Below are positions 31,060 through 43,567 of a DNA stretch of 64,000 nucleotides, in pieces. Source of the DNA: Propionimicrobium sp. PCR01-08-3 (GTDB lineage Bacteria > Actinomycetota > Actinomycetes > Propionibacteriales > Propionibacteriaceae). Positions within the stretch are counted from its first letter, which is position 1. Every line of letters begins with the position of its first letter. The stretch lies in the NCBI RefSeq assembly GCF_030286045.1, contig NZ_CP127390.1, positions 1,240,001-1,304,000 of the forward strand. Direction: 5' to 3'. The notes under the pieces were generated by a model. The model was not told the origin of the DNA. It searched no databases and worked only from the letters and a program-made list of their open reading frames with translations. The translations under genes were made by a program, and so were the position numbers.

Positions 31060-31129
31060 CAAACCAACAAGGATGGCTTGTCGGTTGGTTTGAGTTCCGC
31101 AAAGCGAGCCTATTGGTTCGAGCGAACTC
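31060..31129. terminator. hairpins between convergent gltD and fuconate dehydratase genes
   Basis: CAAACCAAC (31060-31068) pairs with GTTGGTTTG (31084-31092), with AAG/CTT inside. A second pair, GAGTTC/GAACTC (31092-31097, 31124-31129), reaches into the stop codon of the convergent gene. Bidirectional termination is likely. Confidence 0.55.
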
Positions 31130-32444
31130 AGCGGACCGACGCCCAGTAACTGCCGTCCGGGAAGCTGAACTCGTCGATGGCGGCCTGGGTCATCTCTGTG
31201 TTGTATCCCGGGTCGCCGGTGACCTGGTAGCGTCCGTTCGCGACCTTCACCGGATGGACGAAGTACTCGTGCAGGGAGTCGACGTACTCGGTCAGACGGC
31301 CCTCGTAGCTGCCGGAGACCGCGACGTAGTCGAGCATCGACATGTGATGTACCATCTCGCACAGCCCGACCCCGCCGGCGTGCGGGCAGACGGGCACCTC
31401 GAAGTGGGCAGCCAACAGCAGCACCGCGAGGATCTCGTTGACCGAGGCGAGCCGGCCGGCATCGATCTGACAGTAGTCCATGGCGCCGGCCTCGAGGAAC
31501 TGCTTGAACATCACCCGGTTGTGGCAGTGCTCGCCAGTGGCGACACCTATCGGGGCGACTGCATCCCTGACCTTGCGGTGGCCGAGGACGTCGTCGGGGC
31601 TGGTGGGCTCCTCGATCCACTTCAGGTCGAATTGCTTGAGCGCGTTGACCCAGCGGATGGCGGTGGGAACATCCCAGATCTGGTTGGCGTCAATCATCAG
31701 CGGACGATGGGCCCCGATGGCTTCCCGGGCCTTCGTGCAGCGTCGGATGTCGTCATCCAGGTTCGCGCCGACCTTCAACTTGACGGCGGTGAAGCCGAGT
31801 TGTTCCTGCTCGGCGATGATGCGCAGCATCTTCTCGTCCGAATAGCCCAGCCAACCCGCAGCGGTGGTGTACGCGGGGTATCCGGCCGCCTCCAGGTCGG
31901 CGATCCGCTCCGCCTTGCCGGCCTCGGCTTGCTGAAGAATCTCCAGGGCGCGCTCCCTGGGCAGCACATCGGCCAAATAGCGGAGGTCTGCAATATCGAC
32001 CAGCTGCTCGGGAGTCATCTCGGCGAGCAGCCGCCAAACCGGCTTGCCGGCGAGCCGTCCCGCCAGATCCCAGACGGCATTCATGACCGCCGATAGCGCG
32101 AGATGAACCACGCCCTTCTCCGGGCCGAGCCAGCGCATCTGGGAGTCGGACGCGAGATGCAGATAGATGCCACCCATATCGGCGGCCATCTGGTCGACGT
32201 CGCAGCCCACGAGCCGATTGCCGTATTCCTGTGCCGCCGCGCAGACGATGTCATTGCCGCGGCCGATGGTGAAGGTGAGACCGTATCCCGTCAGCTGATG
32301 GCCCCGAGCGTCGGTGCCGTCGGTGTGGATCACCACATAACTGGCCGAATAGTCGGCGTCCGGATTCATCGCGTCGGATCCAGACGCGTCCAGTGACGTG
32401 GGGAAGCGAAGGTCGATGGTCTCGACCGAAGTGATGGTGGCCAT
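31128..32444 (-). CDS. L-fuconate dehydratase (enolase superfamily)
   Basis: 438-residue member of the mandelate racemase subgroup of the enolase superfamily. The catalytic layout is intact: AVKLKVG with Lys (residue about 220), DANQ and IEEP for the Mg ligands, GVATGEHCHNR with the third Glu, and CPHAGGVG with the catalytic His. The combination ATGEHCHNRVMFKQFL with length around 440 is the signature of L-fuconate dehydratase, which turns L-fuconate into 2-keto-3-deoxy-L-fuconate. Related sugar acids may also be accepted. The ATG at 32444 follows AGGAAG by 5 bases; a longer in-frame start is rejected. Upstream on the same strand is an MDR oxidoreductase, but no fucose dehydrogenase or lactonase is adjacent. 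Confidence 0.85.
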   Translation of the reverse strand: MATITSVETIDLRFPTSLDASGSDAMNPDADYSASYVVIHTDGTDARGHQLTGYGLTFTIGRGNDIVCAAAQEYGNRLVGCDVDQMAADMGGIYLHLASDSQMRWLGPEKGVVHLALSAVMNAVWDLAGRLAGKPVWRLLAEMTPEQLVDIADLRYLADVLPRERALEILQQAEAGKAERIADLEAAGYPAYTTAAGWLGYSDEKMLRIIAEQEQLGFTAVKLKVGANLDDDIRRCTKAREAIGAHRPLMIDANQIWDVPTAIRWVNALKQFDLKWIEEPTSPDDVLGHRKVRDAVAPIGVATGEHCHNRVMFKQFLEAGAMDYCQIDAGRLASVNEILAVLLLAAHFEVPVCPHAGGVGLCEMVHHMSMLDYVAVSGSYEGRLTEYVDSLHEYFVHPVKVANGRYQVTGDPGYNTEMTQAAIDEFSFPDGSYWASVR

Positions 32445-32546
32445 GGTTCTTCCTGTCATAGGTCGCTGCATTGAGACGGACGAGAGGGCGTGTCCCGGGC
32501 AACGAAGGTCAGGTCCATTGCCCGATCACATGAAACGAGTGGACGA

Positions 32547-33512
32547 TCAGTAGGTGAAGGCGATCTTGCCGAAGATCTCGCCGGCTTCCATCCGGGCGAA
32601 TGCCCGGCGGGCCTGGGCCAGCGGCAGCTCTTGATCGATCACCGGCGTGATGCCGGCAGTCTGCACGAAGCTGGCGAGGTTGCGCAGATCGTCGATCGAC
32701 CCGGAGGTCGAGCCGTGCACCCGTAGTTCGCGGAAGAAGATCTTGGTCAGTTCGGTCTTTTCCGGTTCGCCGGTGGTGGCCCCGCAAGTCACCAGGGTGC
32801 CGCCCGAACGCAGCACGTTGATCGAATGGCTCCAGGTGGCCTTGCCGACATTGTCGATCACCGCATCGACCTTTTCGGGAAGTCTGGCACCGGACTCGAA
32901 TGCCTGCTCCGCGCCCAGACCGAGAGCCCGCATCCGGCGGTGTTCGTCACGGCTGCTTGCCCAGACCCTGATGCCAGCCGCCGCGGCCAGCTGGATGGCT
33001 GCCGAGTTGACGCCGCCGCCTGCGCCCTGGATGAGCACCAGGTCGCCCGGCCGCAGCCCTGCCTGGACGAACAGCATCCGGTAGGCGGTCAGCATCGTCA
33101 GCGAACAGCAGGCCGCCGTCGTCCAGCTCATTTCTGCGGGCTTGGGAACCAGATTGAAGGTGGGCACCAGAACCGTGGACGCGAAGGTTCCGTCGAAGTT
33201 CTCCGACAACATGGAGCGCTTGGGATCGAGCGGCGCAGGCCCGCTCCAGCCGGGGCTGGTGACCACATTGTGAATGATCACCTCGTTGCCGAACTCATCG
33301 ATCCCGGCACCGTCACAGCCGAGGATCCGGGGTAGCTGTTCCCGCCTCAAACCGACGCCCTTCAGCGACCACAGATCGTGCCGGTTGAGGGTGCTGGCCC
33401 GCATCGTGACCTTCGTCCAGCCCGGCTTGGCGTCCGGCTCGGGCCTTTCGCTGATCTGCAAACCGCCCAGGGGATCGGCGGAAGAAAAGGACACTGCGCT
33501 GACTGCCAACAT
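32547..33512 (-). CDS. MDR-family NAD(P)-dependent oxidoreductase (zinc-less, quinone-oxidoreductase-like)
   Basis: 321-residue medium-chain dehydrogenase/reductase. The N-terminal catalytic domain (about 1-125) includes STLNRHDLWSLKG and LGCDGAGI, but lacks the GHE zinc motif. The nucleotide-binding domain has LVLIQGAGGGVNSAAIQLA near 150. Such proteins reduce enones or quinones; a sugar or aldehyde dehydrogenase role in the neighbouring fuconate pathway is possible but unproved. The ATG at 33512 lies 7 bases after TAGCGT, a TANNNT element, so the transcript may be leaderless. The gap to the fuconate dehydratase gene is 102 bases, so cotranscription is plausible. Divergent from the EIIC-like gene. 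Confidence 0.8.
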   Translation of the reverse strand: MLAVSAVSFSSADPLGGLQISERPEPDAKPGWTKVTMRASTLNRHDLWSLKGVGLRREQLPRILGCDGAGIDEFGNEVIIHNVVTSPGWSGPAPLDPKRSMLSENFDGTFASTVLVPTFNLVPKPAEMSWTTAACCSLTMLTAYRMLFVQAGLRPGDLVLIQGAGGGVNSAAIQLAAAAGIRVWASSRDEHRRMRALGLGAEQAFESGARLPEKVDAVIDNVGKATWSHSINVLRSGGTLVTCGATTGEPEKTELTKIFFRELRVHGSTSGSIDDLRNLASFVQTAGITPVIDQELPLAQARRAFARMEAGEIFGKIAFTY

Positions 33513-33747
33513 GGTTCCCACGCTAGAGGATTTCGGCACGGCCGGCGATCGGTGCGTCCACCAGACGGTCAGAGATCCGGTGGGCAGTCCCGGACGGGCA
33601 CGCTATCTGCGGAAGCGTCGTTCGGATACGGGCCTGACGGCACCGAGACCGGTAGCGGCGATCACCGGTTCTGGTCGAACCTGAATCCGCAGCGAACGCA
33701 CATCGGGCGACAACCGGTGGATCTGGGTGAAAGCTGATGGGAGAAGC

Positions 33748-35328
33748 ATGGAAGCCGGAAAGCGGCGTGTTGTCATTCTCGGGAGCAGCGGCGGAAATCT
33801 TCGCTCTCAAGGTGGCGATGAGCCCGCCAAGCTGTTGACCGAGATCGTCAAGCAACTGGAGGCCGCGGGCATGGAGGTAGCCGGTGCCCAATTCGTTTCG
33901 GCCGCCCAGCCGATGGACCATGCCACCGACCAAACCCAGGCTGCACTGTGGAGTCTCGACGACTCACGTGCCCCGGTCATCACCGCTGAAGGCGTCCTCG
34001 GCGAGATCAACATCGCAGCCCGGCGGGCCGACGCCGACCTCGCCCGCCAAGTCGCGGAGGCACAGATCGACGGATTGGTGCTGGTCAGTGCCGACCCCGG
34101 TGACACCAACAAACTGACGGTTCAGGCCGCGGCGGCCCAAGGCCTTCCAGCGGCCGGCACCGGGGGCACCTCAATCGCCGGTGCGCAGGCGGCAGGGCTG
34201 AATCTGGTGGCCGTATCGGGGACGATCGGTTCGACGAACCGCACCCGCGCGGTGTCTTATGCGTCCGGATTGGCAAAGTACTGGAAGCTCAAGTACCGGC
34301 CGTCGCTGGGCACCGCCCAGGCAGCGGGCGGACAAGGTGAATCGCCGTGGCGGCGGATCAGTATCCGTGGCTCGATCGTTCCGGCGATTCCGGCCTTCAT
34401 CGCGATGGCGCTGGTGCTCGCAGTGTCGAAGATCCCCGGGATGGACGGCCTCACGCCCGCCTTCGACGCTCTGATCGCAGGCATCCCGATCGTCGTCGCT
34501 ATCGTCGCGGCCCGCAAGGTCTCGGGCATGGACGAGATCGGTGCCGTGGCCGGTGCGGTGGCGGGCATCCTCGCGGTCAACGGTGGGGTGATCGGCGGAC
34601 TGCTCGGCGGTCTGATGGCGGGCATCCTGGTCTATTACCTGATGAGCAAGACGCTCGCCTGGGGGTGGCCGGTCACCACGGCCAACATCGTGTCGGGTGG
34701 TCTTGCAGGCCTCGCATCGGGGCTGGTCATCTTCTTTCTGCTCGCTCCCTTCACGAGTTGGCTCGGCGAGGCCGTGAAGAACGGCATCGAGGCCGCCGTC
34801 GGGTTCAGTCCGCTGCTGGCGGGCGCCATCGCCGGGCTGATCATCTGGCCGGCCATCATGTTCGGCATCTATCACTCGGTGATCCTGCCGCTGGTGCTGG
34901 TCGAGATGAGCGAAAAGGGGCACTCCTTCTTCGGCGCTGTCGACATGGTGGGGCTGGTGATGGTCAGCCTCGGCATCACGCTGGCCAATATCGTGCGGCC
35001 ACGCAGCTCGGGCGAGCGGGCGCTGGCGGCCTCGGGGGCCTCCATCAACTTCTTCTTCGGCACCTTCGTCGAGGCGGCATACCCCTTCATGTTCGCCGAC
35101 CGCAAGGTGCTGGGTTCCGCGCTGGCGGCGGCGACCGTCGGGGGAGCTCTGGTGGGGCTGACCGGCTCGGAGGCGACCGCCTATCTGCCGGCCTTCGTGG
35201 CGCCGTTCGTCTCCACCAATGCCTGGGGGCTGGTGCTCTCGATGGTCGTCGCAGCGGGACTGGCTTTTACGCTCACGCTGTTGTCGAACATCGCGGCGCT
35301 GCACAAACAAGAACCTGCCGCCGCCTGA
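33748..35328 (+). CDS. EIIC-like membrane protein with N-terminal alpha/beta domain
   Basis: 526-residue two-part protein. Residues 1-170 form a soluble alpha/beta domain I do not recognise, with Gly-rich turns ILGSSGGNLRSQGGDEPAKL and GTGGTSIAGAQ. Residues about 205-520 hold nine or ten hydrophobic spans, with IPAFIAMALVL, MFGIYHSVILPLVLVEM and SINFFFGTFVEAAYPFMF; this resembles the PTS EIIC_2 (fructose-like) permease family. No EIIA histidine or EIIB cysteine domain is visible here or in adjacent genes. It could import a sugar or sugar acid for the divergent fuconate locus. Start chosen at ATG 33748, with GGGAG just upstream. EIIC family is probable; the fusion partner is undefined. Confidence 0.6.
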   Translation: MEAGKRRVVILGSSGGNLRSQGGDEPAKLLTEIVKQLEAAGMEVAGAQFVSAAQPMDHATDQTQAALWSLDDSRAPVITAEGVLGEINIAARRADADLARQVAEAQIDGLVLVSADPGDTNKLTVQAAAAQGLPAAGTGGTSIAGAQAAGLNLVAVSGTIGSTNRTRAVSYASGLAKYWKLKYRPSLGTAQAAGGQGESPWRRISIRGSIVPAIPAFIAMALVLAVSKIPGMDGLTPAFDALIAGIPIVVAIVAARKVSGMDEIGAVAGAVAGILAVNGGVIGGLLGGLMAGILVYYLMSKTLAWGWPVTTANIVSGGLAGLASGLVIFFLLAPFTSWLGEAVKNGIEAAVGFSPLLAGAIAGLIIWPAIMFGIYHSVILPLVLVEMSEKGHSFFGAVDMVGLVMVSLGITLANIVRPRSSGERALAASGASINFFFGTFVEAAYPFMFADRKVLGSALAAATVGGALVGLTGSEATAYLPAFVAPFVSTNAWGLVLSMVVAAGLAFTLTLLSNIAALHKQEPAAA

Positions 35329-39860: not shown

Positions 39861-40301
39861 TTCCACGGAAAACCCGCGCCTGCCACCCGACACCAGCATG
39901 GTGTCGAACTGCAACGCCGACTCGTCGATGAAGACCGGAAGCTGGCGTTTTTGCCCAATCGGAGAGATGCCGCCGACGATGTAGCCGGTGAGGCGTTCGG
40001 CGTCCGCCGGGTCGGCCATGGTGGCCTTCTTGGCGCCGGCGGCCTGGGCCAGGGCCTTCAGATCGAGTTGGCCGGAAACCGGCACCACGGCGCACACGTG
40101 CGGGTGCTTGGCGCCGGTGAGTTCGGCGACCAGAGTTTTGAACGTGCGGTGCGGGTCGACGCCCATCACCGCGACGGTTTCTTCACCGAAATGATGGTTG
40201 CCGGGGTCGTGCTCGTATTCGTGAACGGTGAACGGCACCTTGGCACGGGTCAAGACGGTCGTGGCCGGGGTGGCCGCCCCGGCAGTCTTGCGTTTGCTCA
40301 T
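39795..40301 (-). CDS. ybaK: Cys-tRNA(Pro)/Cys-tRNA(Cys) deacylase, YbaK family
   Basis: 168-residue YbaK-type editing protein that hydrolyses mischarged Cys-tRNA(Pro). [39 protein letters not shown] at the N-terminus, the Lys in [23 protein letters not shown] and [22 protein letters not shown] are all typical of the bacterial family. Start at ATG 40301 (MSKRKTAG); the upstream extension has no conserved sequence. The 3' end overlaps the convergent membrane-protein gene by 66 bases. Divergent from hisD. Related functions, such as free Cys-tRNA deacylation, are possible. Confidence 0.92.
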
Positions 40302-40331
40302 ACTCGACACATACCAGAACCCGGCAACCAC

Positions 40332-40411
40332 GACGCTCGACCGCAAGATGTCCGCGTCTCGGCTCTTCACGTCAATAGCGGACGCTCGCGGAGACGCTCG
40401 ATCGCAAGATG
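40332..40411. repeat. pair of 19-base direct repeats, 61 bases apart
   Basis: GACGCTCGACCGCAAGATG (40332-40350) and GACGCTCGATCGCAAGATG (40393-40411) differ at one base. They lie in the ybaK-hisD intergenic region and might be regulator sites or the traces of a short duplication. Confidence 0.45.
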
Positions 40412-40502
40412 CGCGCGCAGCTGGCCGCATCACGAGGATGACCGGAAAGAACCGGTGGATACCGCCGGCAAGACTGGTCCGCGCCAGGCACGCGTGCACC
40501 AT

Positions 40503-40508
40503 TAGAAT
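40503..40508 (+). promoter_or_regulatory. -10 element for leaderless hisD transcript
   Basis: TAGAAT ends 7 bases before GTG 40516, the chosen hisD start, and no Shine-Dalgarno sequence is present. This fits the leaderless spacing seen at several other genes in the window. Confidence 0.5.
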
Positions 40509-40515
40509 CGGGTAT

Positions 40516-41826
40516 GTGCTTTCGGTGATCGACCTGACCAATCAAACCCTGGATGACTATTCGGCCGTGTTGCCGCGCGGACGCTTCGACGTCGACCATG
40601 CGGTGGCCACCGTGCGTCCGATCAGCGAGGCGGTGCGCGACGAAGGGGTGGACGCCCTGCTGCGCTTCAGCGAGCAGTTCGATCATGTGATTCCGGCCGA
40701 TCTCAGGGTGCCCGCCGAGGCGCTCCGAGCCGCCCTCGGCGAGCTCGATCCGAAGGTGCGCGAAGCGATCGAGGTGTCGATCGAACGCCGCCGCAAGGTG
40801 TGCGAACAGATCGAGACCGAACCCCAGTGGCGCAGCGTCGAGCTCGCCCCGGGCGCGGTGGTCGGCAACGAGATGGTTCCGGTGCGCAGAGTCGGATTGT
40901 ATGTGCCCGGGGGGCTGGCCCCGCTGGCCTCCAGCGTCGTGATGAACGTGGTGCCCGCCCAGGTCGCCGGAGTCTCCTCGCTTGCGGTGGCGACTCCGCC
41001 GCAGGCCGAGTTCGGCGGCCTGCCGCACCCGGTGACCCTGGCCACCTGTGCGCTGCTCGGTGTGGACGAGGTCTATGCGGTGGGTGGCGCCCAGGCGATC
41101 GCGATGTTCGCCCACGGAGTGGCCGGATTGTGTCCCAGGGTCGATCTGGTGACCGGGCCGGGCAATATCTATGTGGTCGCGGCGAAGAGGCTGCTGCGCG
41201 GGGTGGTCGGCATCGACGCGGAGGCCGGCCCGACAGAGATCGCGGTGCTGGCCGACGATACCGCCGACCCGCGTTTCGTCGCATCCGACCTGATCAGCCA
41301 GGCCGAACACGATCCGATGGCCGGATCGGTGCTCATCACGCCCAGCCGGACCCTGGCCGAGCAGGTGCAGGCCGAGGTGGCCGCCCAGGTCGCCGCACTC
41401 GCCACCGCCGAACGCCTGACGAAGGCCCTGACCGGCGAGCAATCGGCGATCGTGCTGGTCAAAGACCTCGACCAGGGTGTCGAGGTCGCGAATGCCTACG
41501 CGGCCGAGCATCTCGAGATACAGACGTCCGATGCGGTGCAGGTGGCGCATCGCATTCACAATGCCGGCGCGATCTTCGTCGGTGACTACGCGCCGGTGCC
41601 GCTCGGTGACTATTCGGCGGGCTCCACGCATGTGCTGCCGACCGGCAGCGCGGCGCGCTACTCGTCCGGGCTGACGGTGCGCAGCTTCATGAAGTCGATC
41701 CACGTCATCGCGTACTCCCGCGAGGGGCTGGCCGCGATAGGCGAGGAAATCATGAACTTCGCGCATGCCGAGAATCTGCCCGGCCACGCCGCGGCCATCG
41801 ACGTCCGGTTGGGGGAGCAGCGATGA
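40516..41826 (+). CDS. hisD: histidinol dehydrogenase
   Basis: Last two oxidations of histidine synthesis (histidinol to histidine), NAD- and Zn-dependent. 436 residues. [49 protein letters not shown] and the zinc-site region around AEHLEIQT are conserved. Start taken as GTG 40516, 7 bases after TAGAAT; GTG 40525 is an alternative. A much longer upstream frame has no conserved sequence and crosses the divergent ybaK gene. First gene of a tightly overlapped his operon (hisD-C-B-H-priA). Confidence 0.97.
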
Positions 41827-42953
41827 GCGCGGGCAGCGACATCACCTTGGACCAGTTGCCGCTGCGTCCCGAGCTGGTCGGCCAGGAGCCCTACGGTGCT
41901 CCGCAACTCGATGTGCCGGTGATGCTGAACGTCAACGAGAACCCATATCCGCCGAGTTCCAAGGTGCGCATCCAGATGGCCGAGGCCATCCGTGACCTGA
42001 CCAAGACGATCAACCGGTACCCCGACCGGGAGGCCCTGGCGCTGCGGCAAGATCTGGCGCGCTATCTCGGATTCGGACTCGGCGCCGAAAACATCTGGGT
42101 GGCCAACGGCTCCAACGAGGTGATGACCCATCTGCTGCAGGCCTTCGGCGGTCCCGGACGCACCCTGCTGGCCTTCACTCCGACCTATTCGATGTATCCG
42201 GAGTATGCGCGCAACACCCACACCGGATATGTCACCGTGCCCAGGAAACACGACTTCACCGTGGACGCCGAGCTGGTGCTCTCGGCGATCGCGGAACACC
42301 ATGCCGACATCGTGCTGATCTGTACCCCGAACAACCCGACCGGCACCCAGACCCCGGTCAGCGTCATCGAGGAGATCTGCGCCGGCACCGATGCGATGGT
42401 GATCGTCGACGAGGCCTACCAGGAATTCACCGAGGTGCCGGCCGACTCCTCGCTGGCCCTGCTGCCACGCTTCGGCAAGCTCGTGGTGAGCCGCACCATG
42501 AGCAAGGCATTCGCCCTGGCCGGTGGACGCGTCGGTTACTTCGCGGCGGCCCCGGCGGTGGTGGATGCCTGCCGGATCGTCCGGCTGCCCTATCACATGT
42601 CGGCCCAAACCCAGGCGGTCGCCCGGGTGGCGCTTGCCCACACCCCCGAGATGCTCGGGCAGGTTGATGCCCTGCGGGATTCCTGCCAGCAGATCCAGCA
42701 ATGGCTGCGCCACCTCGGCCTCGAAGTCATCCCCAGCCAATCGAACTTCTGTCTGTTCGGCCGTTTCGCAGACCGGCATGCCGTCTGGCAAGCACTTTTG
42801 GACCGTGGTGTGCTGATCCGGGAGACCGGGCCGCAAGGATTCCTGCGGGTGTCGGCGGGAACCGGCCAAGAAATGTCAGAGTTCCGTGCTGCACTGAGTG
42901 ACATCCTTCCCGACCACCAGGTGCTCAGCCCAGATGAGGAGCCAGCCAGATGA
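41823..42953 (+). CDS. hisC: histidinol-phosphate aminotransferase
   Basis: PLP enzyme converting imidazole acetol phosphate to histidinol phosphate. 376 residues. [13 protein letters not shown] at the N-terminus, [31 protein letters not shown] and [17 protein letters not shown] with the PLP lysine are all present. It overlaps hisD and hisB by four bases each (ATGA). GGGGGAGCAGCG upstream provides the ribosome site. Confidence 0.97.
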
Positions 42954-43567
42954 CCAACGAGCCACGTATCGCCGAGATCCACCGGGCGACCAGTGAATCA
43001 GATGTGCACGTCAAGCTGAACCTCGACGGCACAGGGGAATCCACCATCAGCACCGGCGTCGGCTTCTACGACCACATGCTCACCGCTTTGTCGAAGCACT
43101 CGCTGATCGACATGGAGGTCGCCACCACCGGAGACCTCTTCATCGACGGACATCACTCGATCGAGGACACCGCGATCGCGATCGGGCAGGCCCTGGGTCA
43201 GGCGCTCGGCGATAAACGGGGCATCCGCCGCTATGCGGACGCCACCGTTCCGTTGGACGAAGCCCTGGCCAGGTGTGTGGTCGACGTAGCCGGCCGACCC
43301 TATGCGGTGGTCAGCGGCGAACCGGAAAGCCAGATCACGGCGCGCATCGGCGGCACCGACCCGCTGTACGCGGGGTCGATGACCGCCCACGTGGTCGAGT
43401 CACTGGCCTTCAACGCCGGCATCTGCGTCCACCTGACCCTGCTGGCCGGACGCGAACCGCACCACATCGTGGAGTCCGAATTCAAGGCGCTGGCCCGCGC
43501 GCTGCGCTTCGCTGTCGAACCCGATCCGCGGGTGAGTGGCATCCCCAGCACCAAGGGTGCGCTGTGA
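42950..43567 (+). CDS. hisB: imidazoleglycerol-phosphate dehydratase
   Basis: Mn-dependent dehydratase of histidine synthesis. 205 residues, monofunctional (no histidinol phosphatase domain). Metal-binding repeats are readable: [34 protein letters not shown] and [15 protein letters not shown]. The ATG overlaps the hisC stop by four bases and the stop overlaps hisH (GTGA). The histidinol-phosphate phosphatase activity must come from another gene outside the window. Confidence 0.97.

Follow-up and report, generated by a model that had tools for sequence, protein, structure and literature searches.

A family of fusions between a Rossmann-like domain and a glucose-superfamily EIIC fold, candidate permeases independent of the phosphotransferase system

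Introduction

EIIC transporters are usually described as tied to the PEP phosphotransferase (PTS) chain. EIICs without partners are already known as 'incomplete' or 'orphan' PTS (PMC2848229). Another paper describes the glutamate of the GITEP motif as essential for transport and phosphorylation in EIIC, and the HP1b histidine H226 as implicated in phosphotransfer (PMC12900739).

Here we describe a gene of Propionimicrobium sp. PCR01-08-3 whose product joins a soluble N-terminal domain to a membrane domain of the EIIC type. It lies in a stretch of 64,000 nucleotides, hereafter the window (contig NZ_CP127390.1, positions 1,240,001 to 1,304,000 of the forward strand). A search of the titles and abstract starts of the open-access literature found no paper on a fusion of this N-domain to an EIIC.

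Results

The fusion gene and its product

The listing of open reading frames gives an open frame at 33727-35328 on the + strand, which opens with GTG 33727 and encodes 533 aa if counted from there. The gene is given here from ATG 33748; conservation across the fusion family sets in a few residues after this ATG. The GC3 of the gene is 0.815, beside 0.81-0.88 for four other window genes, and the frame is confirmed as a real coding gene. Residues H383 and E449 are numbered from GTG 33727 (533 aa), and the A1 numbering of the N-domain begins at residue 12. The features, in window coordinates, are as follows.

33748..35328, + strand: gene of the fusion protein (526 aa, start ATG 33748), a Rossmann-like N-domain joined to a glucose-superfamily EIIC
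33739..33743, + strand: likely ribosome-binding site GGGAG for ATG 33748, by direct reading
33760..34314, + strand: N-terminal alpha/beta domain (A1 residues 1-185), where the window protein matches no Pfam family; modelled with pLDDT 92.6
33781..33798, + strand: conserved loop GSSGGN, after strand 3-9
34087..34098, + strand: conserved loop SADP, after strand 105-109
34156..34173, + strand: conserved loop GTGGTS, after strand 130-134
34216..34251, + strand: conserved loop SGTIGSTNRTRA, after strand 148-153
34309..34344, + strand: interdomain linker, poorly conserved, its first part of low model confidence
34348..35325, + strand: membrane domain, its modelled fold of the glucose-superfamily EIIC type (Z 24.4 with the PtsG model 9a3b, 21.5 with bcMalT 5iws)
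34873..34875, + strand: His383 codon, kept in 81/81; aligns with the His of the own-genome EIICs L001 and L002
35071..35073, + strand: Glu449 codon, in GTFVEAAYPF; aligns with the motif Glu of all four own-genome EIICs

The original prediction, made from the sequence, had the two-domain layout right: a modelled alpha/beta domain of 185 residues is followed by a membrane domain that can be superposed on structures of EIICs.

The N-terminal domain

The structure prediction and fold search that had been proposed for the N-domain yielded a model (pLDDT 92.6, pTM 0.90) with a Rossmann/flavodoxin-like sheet and a hairpin insert, but no known family among those tested. Fifty-two of its residues are conserved at 90% or more, and 33 of these fall within the 65 of 185 positions that lie at or just past strand C-ends (hypergeometric P 7e-7), a statistic that treats the five main strands as parallel, on the basis of the fold, and uses windows picked by the analyst. 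The Gly-rich loops of the prediction were found and show conservation (GSSGGN, GTGGTS and SGTxGxTNRTRA); in the model, the conserved loops at the strand C-ends look like one ligand or phosphate pocket.

The best histidine column of the domain, at position 185, holds His in 44 of 81 sequences, and the best cysteine column, at 183, holds Cys in 22 of 81. No Cys or His that could be phosphorylated as in an EIIB is conserved in the N-domain across the 81 sequences, and an identity as EIIA or EIIB is thereby ruled out, as had been foreseen: none of their carrier residues is there. The expectation that the protein would show no phosphoryl-carrier residue was likewise borne out, the sole Cys/His column conserved in 81/81 sequences being H383, which belongs to the EIIC part.

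Foldseek searches with the N-domain against the PDB and BFVD gave no match at E<=0.001. The best VIA matches were to a flavodiiron protein (Z 10.6 over 126 residues) and uroporphyrinogen III synthase (Z 10.4 over 120 residues), and those with Z 8-10.6 were scattered across unrelated folds, within or little above the background stated for the tool. By sequence, phmmer with the whole protein against the PDB returned nothing convincing (best E 0.019, RuvB-like 2), and profile searches of the PDB gave a best E of 1.1, or 0.88 with a whole-protein profile. The N-terminal domain of UPF0261/Tm-1 (PF06792) gave a structural match by Foldseek/VIA but was rejected as a candidate, with an hhalign probability of 7.5 against 6 members. 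At E<=1, six of 27 members matched PF13407 (best 5.5e-07) and the window protein did not; in a set of 10 members, one matched at E<=0.01, and the best score, over about 48 residues, was 28.8 bits, below the cut-off of 35.1. The families listed for the N-domain (25 of 34) included no kinase family.

The membrane domain

The membrane part had been assigned to the EIIC_2 type; it is instead glucose-superfamily (PF02378-like) by its modelled fold, and the 11 families listed for it include no EIIC_2 model. At E<=10 no Pfam family, PF02378 included, matches the window protein, and NCBIfam yields three partial hits that fall far short of their cut-offs, all to EIIABC/EIIBC models and confined to residues 224-529; among 27 members, nine match PF02378 at E<=0.1 (best 1.3e-06). 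With the full-length model (pLDDT 85.0, pTM 0.56), Foldseek returned four matches at E<=0.001, all to glucose-type EIICs (1.5e-07 to 3.6e-04). VIA gave Z 26.7 to 9a6a_B (listed as GLPD-PTTBC), 24.4 to the PtsG model 9a3b and 21.5 to bcMalT 5iws with 312 residues aligned; its top three matches align 304-316 residues, and two of the three are model-based entries. Inward-facing and other structures superpose less well (9lgt, Z 12.2; 6bvg, Z 12.1; ChbC 3qnq, Z 9.4), and the superposition on 8qsr, an experimental inward-facing cryo-EM structure, is also looser (Z 13.0, rmsd 6.7). On this modelling, the membrane part is a member of the EIIC fold family.

The residues that mark an EIIC transport domain, its histidine and the glutamate of the GITEP motif, are both found, with the motif itself altered to GTFVEA. 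E449 is invariant in 27/27 members and, by hhalign against the four PF02378 proteins of the same genome (probabilities 23.6, 47.0, 96.2 and 94.4 for L001 to L004), pairs with the motif Glu in all four (GISE in L001, GIHE in L002, MITE in L003 and ISE in L004). H383, present in 81/81 sequences as the only Cys or His conserved throughout, pairs with a His in two of the four, L001 (GLHW) and L002 (NAINH); L003 and L004 have no His at this position.

Distribution of the fusion family

A scan of genome contigs gave 209 stretches, 143 of them encoding relatives. The architecture search that had been suggested thus found the same fusion elsewhere: the best 80 of the 143 relatives, a fetched set biased by a ranking that favours full-length proteins, are 45-77% identical over nearly the whole length, and both domains are present in 80/80. 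The claim of an undescribed architecture is supported in that none of the Pfam or NCBIfam models attains its cut-off with the window protein. The protein is not unique. The homologues come mostly from Bacillota, with others from Chloroflexota and Spirochaetota and few from Actinomycetota. The window protein groups with those of a Propionibacterium MAG (L005) and Kineosporia (L006), at 100/100 support, in an 81-row tree where long branches are flagged. A search of plasmid records gave no match.

The N-domain alone was searched for across the class to which G545 belongs, in 299 genomes that included two holders known beforehand, G545 and G585. Fifteen had a match at E<=0.001, 11 strong and four weak. 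All 11 strong matches (two known beforehand) sit in frames of 514-560 aa with both domains; the weak ones span about 40-50 residues each and sit in shorter frames, 312-335 aa long. Within the window's phylum the N-domain occurs in one of 396 sampled genomes, the window's own, and within its family in three of 147, all of one genus and including the own genome.

Presence of the PTS

We surveyed the PTS in 49 genomes that bear the family (50 were chosen behind the 80 loci, 38 from non-Bacilli and 12 from Bacilli). EI (PF05524) and HPr (PF00381) were each found in 43 of the 49, and a PF00367 EIIB in 22, leaving 27 without one. The same six genomes lacked detected EI, HPr and PF00367 EIIB: G561 (L017), G563 (L024), G547 (L038), G570 (L041), G554 (L063, Longilinea arvoryzae KOME-1) and G580 (L083). 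Five of the six are titled as MAGs and may be incomplete; Longilinea arvoryzae is titled as a strain, an isolate. Because several genomes have the EI and HPr genes only a few kb apart, a single assembly gap could drop both from a MAG.

The window's own genome encodes four PF02378 EIICs, all outside the window. For the genome check for a matching EIIAB that had been called for, the genome was searched for PF00367 EIIB; the single one found lies in an EIIB-EIIC fusion frame about 620 kb away. The fusion protein itself holds no PF00367 domain, and the only genomic one belongs to another EIIC.

A TIM barrel and other neighbours

In 24 of the 80 loci a TIM-barrel gene follows directly downstream on the same strand, as checked by tblastn. 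Twenty-three of these genes are whole, at about 279 aa, and that of L009 breaks off after 112 residues, where the contig ends. The other 56 loci, the window's nearest kin among them, have no adjacent TIM barrel. The protein is matched in 27 of 49 genomes at E<=0.001, in 25 of them at >=54% identity; in 24 of these 25 the gene adjoins the EIIC gene, and in the genome of L068 it lies elsewhere. Five of the six PTS-less genomes encode the barrel, the exception being G570 (L041), and searches of the L005 and L006 genomes turned up no relative. One member scanned against Pfam had no family above cut-off, and TMP-TENI was matched by 20/20 members scanned at E<=0.1 (best 2.6e-07). The C-terminal GGIN...VVGT of the barrel is similar to the phosphate motif seen in barrels of the ribulose-phosphate type.

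Within two genes of 13 of the 24 EIIC-TIM pairs lies a regulator gene of the GntR/UTRA or DeoR type. GntR-type genes, all of one cluster, are near 10 pairs, the GntR/UTRA typing resting on two members by Pfam, one of them that of L006, which has no TIM barrel. DeoR-type genes are near three pairs, with one member typed. Seven Chloroflexota loci (L013, L024, L031, L038, L043, L059 and L063) share a conserved family of 357-419 aa encoded upstream and divergently, of which the scanned member had no Pfam match at E<=1e-5.

In the window, an enolase-superfamily gene and a zinc-type reductase gene lie at 31128-33539 on the - strand; uptake tests with fuconate and related acids had been suggested in the original prediction. 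Among the 80 loci the enolase-family gene recurs only in L005 (87%, tblastn), while the reductase has counterparts in L005 (78%) and, as a weak match, L033 (28%) alone. We dropped the fuconate operon, which has its enolase-family neighbour in 1/80 loci and is unsupported beyond close relatives.

Histidine biosynthesis genes were seen near several loci. Those of the window (40228-43567) are hisD-, hisC- and hisB-like and start about 5 kb downstream of the fusion gene. Others lie within a few kb in six of the 80 loci (L006, L021, L029, L064, L068 and L077), five from one Lachnospiraceae-type clade and one from Kineosporia; at a seventh, L036, the match is a weak one to an aminotransferase. The EIIC-TIM pair of L021 is flanked by hisD (PF00815) on one side and by a His_biosynth/PRA-CH/PRA-PH fusion on the other. 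This histidine link was not read as a function. Next to the Kineosporia homologue, and divergent from it, is a gene for an aromatic amino acid lyase (PF00221; L006:4166-5779) that by eye looks like histidine ammonia-lyase. In the Propionibacterium MAG, a gene for a ThrE-type exporter (PF06738) and a short gene (L005:7625-9496) stand between the homologue and a dnaE-like gene; both are absent from that place in the window.

Discussion

We propose that the fusion protein is a one-protein permease of the EIIC type that works independently of the PTS, with a ligand-binding domain in place of EIIB; we give this proposal about an even chance of being correct. On the elevator fold of a glucose-superfamily EIIC, a Rossmann-like domain would have replaced the EIIB at the N-terminus. 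This domain, which by analogy with EIIB-EIIC proteins would lie on the cytoplasmic side, would hold no phosphoryl group on Cys or His and would bind a small ligand, probably a sugar, a sugar acid or a phosphate-bearing molecule. The solute would be bound by the usual His/Glu pair of the EIIC, cross the membrane and be freed inside without the help of EI, HPr, EIIA or EIIB, and the N-domain may capture the solute, sense it or gate its release. Where the TIM-barrel gene follows, the enzyme would probably act on a phosphorylated form of the solute. We infer both the transport activity of the fusion protein and its direction.

Could the protein nevertheless be a PTS permease, in which the EIIC borrows EIIA and EIIB in trans and the N-domain is regulatory? 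The EIIC His and Glu are kept, and phosphorylation in trans could take place because EI and HPr are encoded in 43 of the 49 genomes and ordinary EIIC fusions, the EIIB-EIIC frame among them, occur in the window's own genome. We nonetheless consider this unlikely: the N-domain takes the position of EIIB, 27 of the 49 genomes are without PF00367 EIIB, the partner type of such EIICs, and six are without that domain and EI and HPr as well. Since EI and HPr are absent together in 6/49, they are not required by the fusion family, and the gene content of six genomes contradicts the idea that the family belongs to a working PTS. The histidine, on the other hand, is retained and is implicated in phosphotransfer in EIICs, and is a poor fit with a plain facilitator. 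The suggestion in the original prediction that transport is uncoupled from phosphorylation is possibly wrong: the six family genomes without detected EI, HPr or PF00367 EIIB back an uncoupling from the PEP-PTS, but H383 and E449 are kept and the family has a phosphate-type TIM partner elsewhere.

These last features would also suit a PTS-independent group translocation. Here the N-domain would take the phosphoryl group from ATP or some other bound donor and pass it to the solute on the EIIC, in place of the EIIB reaction. Loops of Gly, Ser, Thr and Arg at the strand C-ends of a domain in the EIIB position, the retained His/Glu, a TIM partner weakly but generally similar to phosphate-binding barrels, the GntR/UTRA or DeoR-type regulator genes beside 13 of the barrels and the genomes without a detected PTS are all consistent with it; set against them are the lack of a kinase family among the N-domain families listed (25 of 34), the lack of profile similarity to UPF0261 and the low model confidence of the linker, and we think this mechanism distinctly unlikely. 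That it amounts to a second route of group translocation, in which the EIIC would use a non-PTS donor such as ATP, bound to the N-domain, to phosphorylate the solute on import and would supply a dedicated TIM-barrel enzyme that binds phosphate, in bacteria without any PTS, is slightly more doubtful again. A membrane sensor or receptor, whose EIIC part binds the solute and whose N-domain signals inside, seems to us very unlikely. No dedicated enzyme is visible beside the gene in the 56 of 80 loci without an adjacent TIM gene, as would suit a sensor, but the full EIIC core and the transport residues are conserved, and the putative enzyme paired with it in 24 loci points to catabolism.

A conserved EIIC family in genomes that lack the PEP-PTS, with an undescribed domain where EIIB would be, would show the EIIC acting either as a plain permease or in a new form of coupled import, and the fusion family would make the contribution of phosphorylation to EIIC transport testable. 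Coupling to a non-PTS phosphoryl donor, if true, would be a more important result than a plain permease. The link to the TIM barrel, furthermore, gives the uncharacterised structure 4ml9 a transport context.

How, then, does the fusion compare with described systems? The likeness of the N-domain to UPF0261/Tm-1 (PF06792; PDB 9mpy) consists in a Rossmann-like fold, with Z 8.8 over 144 residues, a value in the range of common folds, and there is no profile similarity. With the type I periplasmic-binding/LacI lobe (PF13407) it shares a stretch around IDGLxxxSADP, and CcpA 4rk6, of the LacI type, superposes with Z 8.8. PDB 4ml9, listed as 'Uncharacterized protein', is a full-length relative of the TIM partner (E 6e-147); no gene of this type stands next to the window's fusion gene. 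The PTS EIICs of the glucose superfamily (PtsG, bcMalT and BglF-type) differ from the window protein in that it has no EIIA or EIIB, reads GTFVEA where they have GITEP and does not match PF02378; the fusion family differs further in being found in genomes where EI, HPr and PF00367 EIIB all went undetected. With these EIICs the window protein nevertheless shares, in its predicted structure, the fold over nearly the whole membrane domain, and it too keeps the conserved His and Glu. What is known here is the EIIC fold of the glucose superfamily; what is undescribed is the soluble domain at the position of EIIB.
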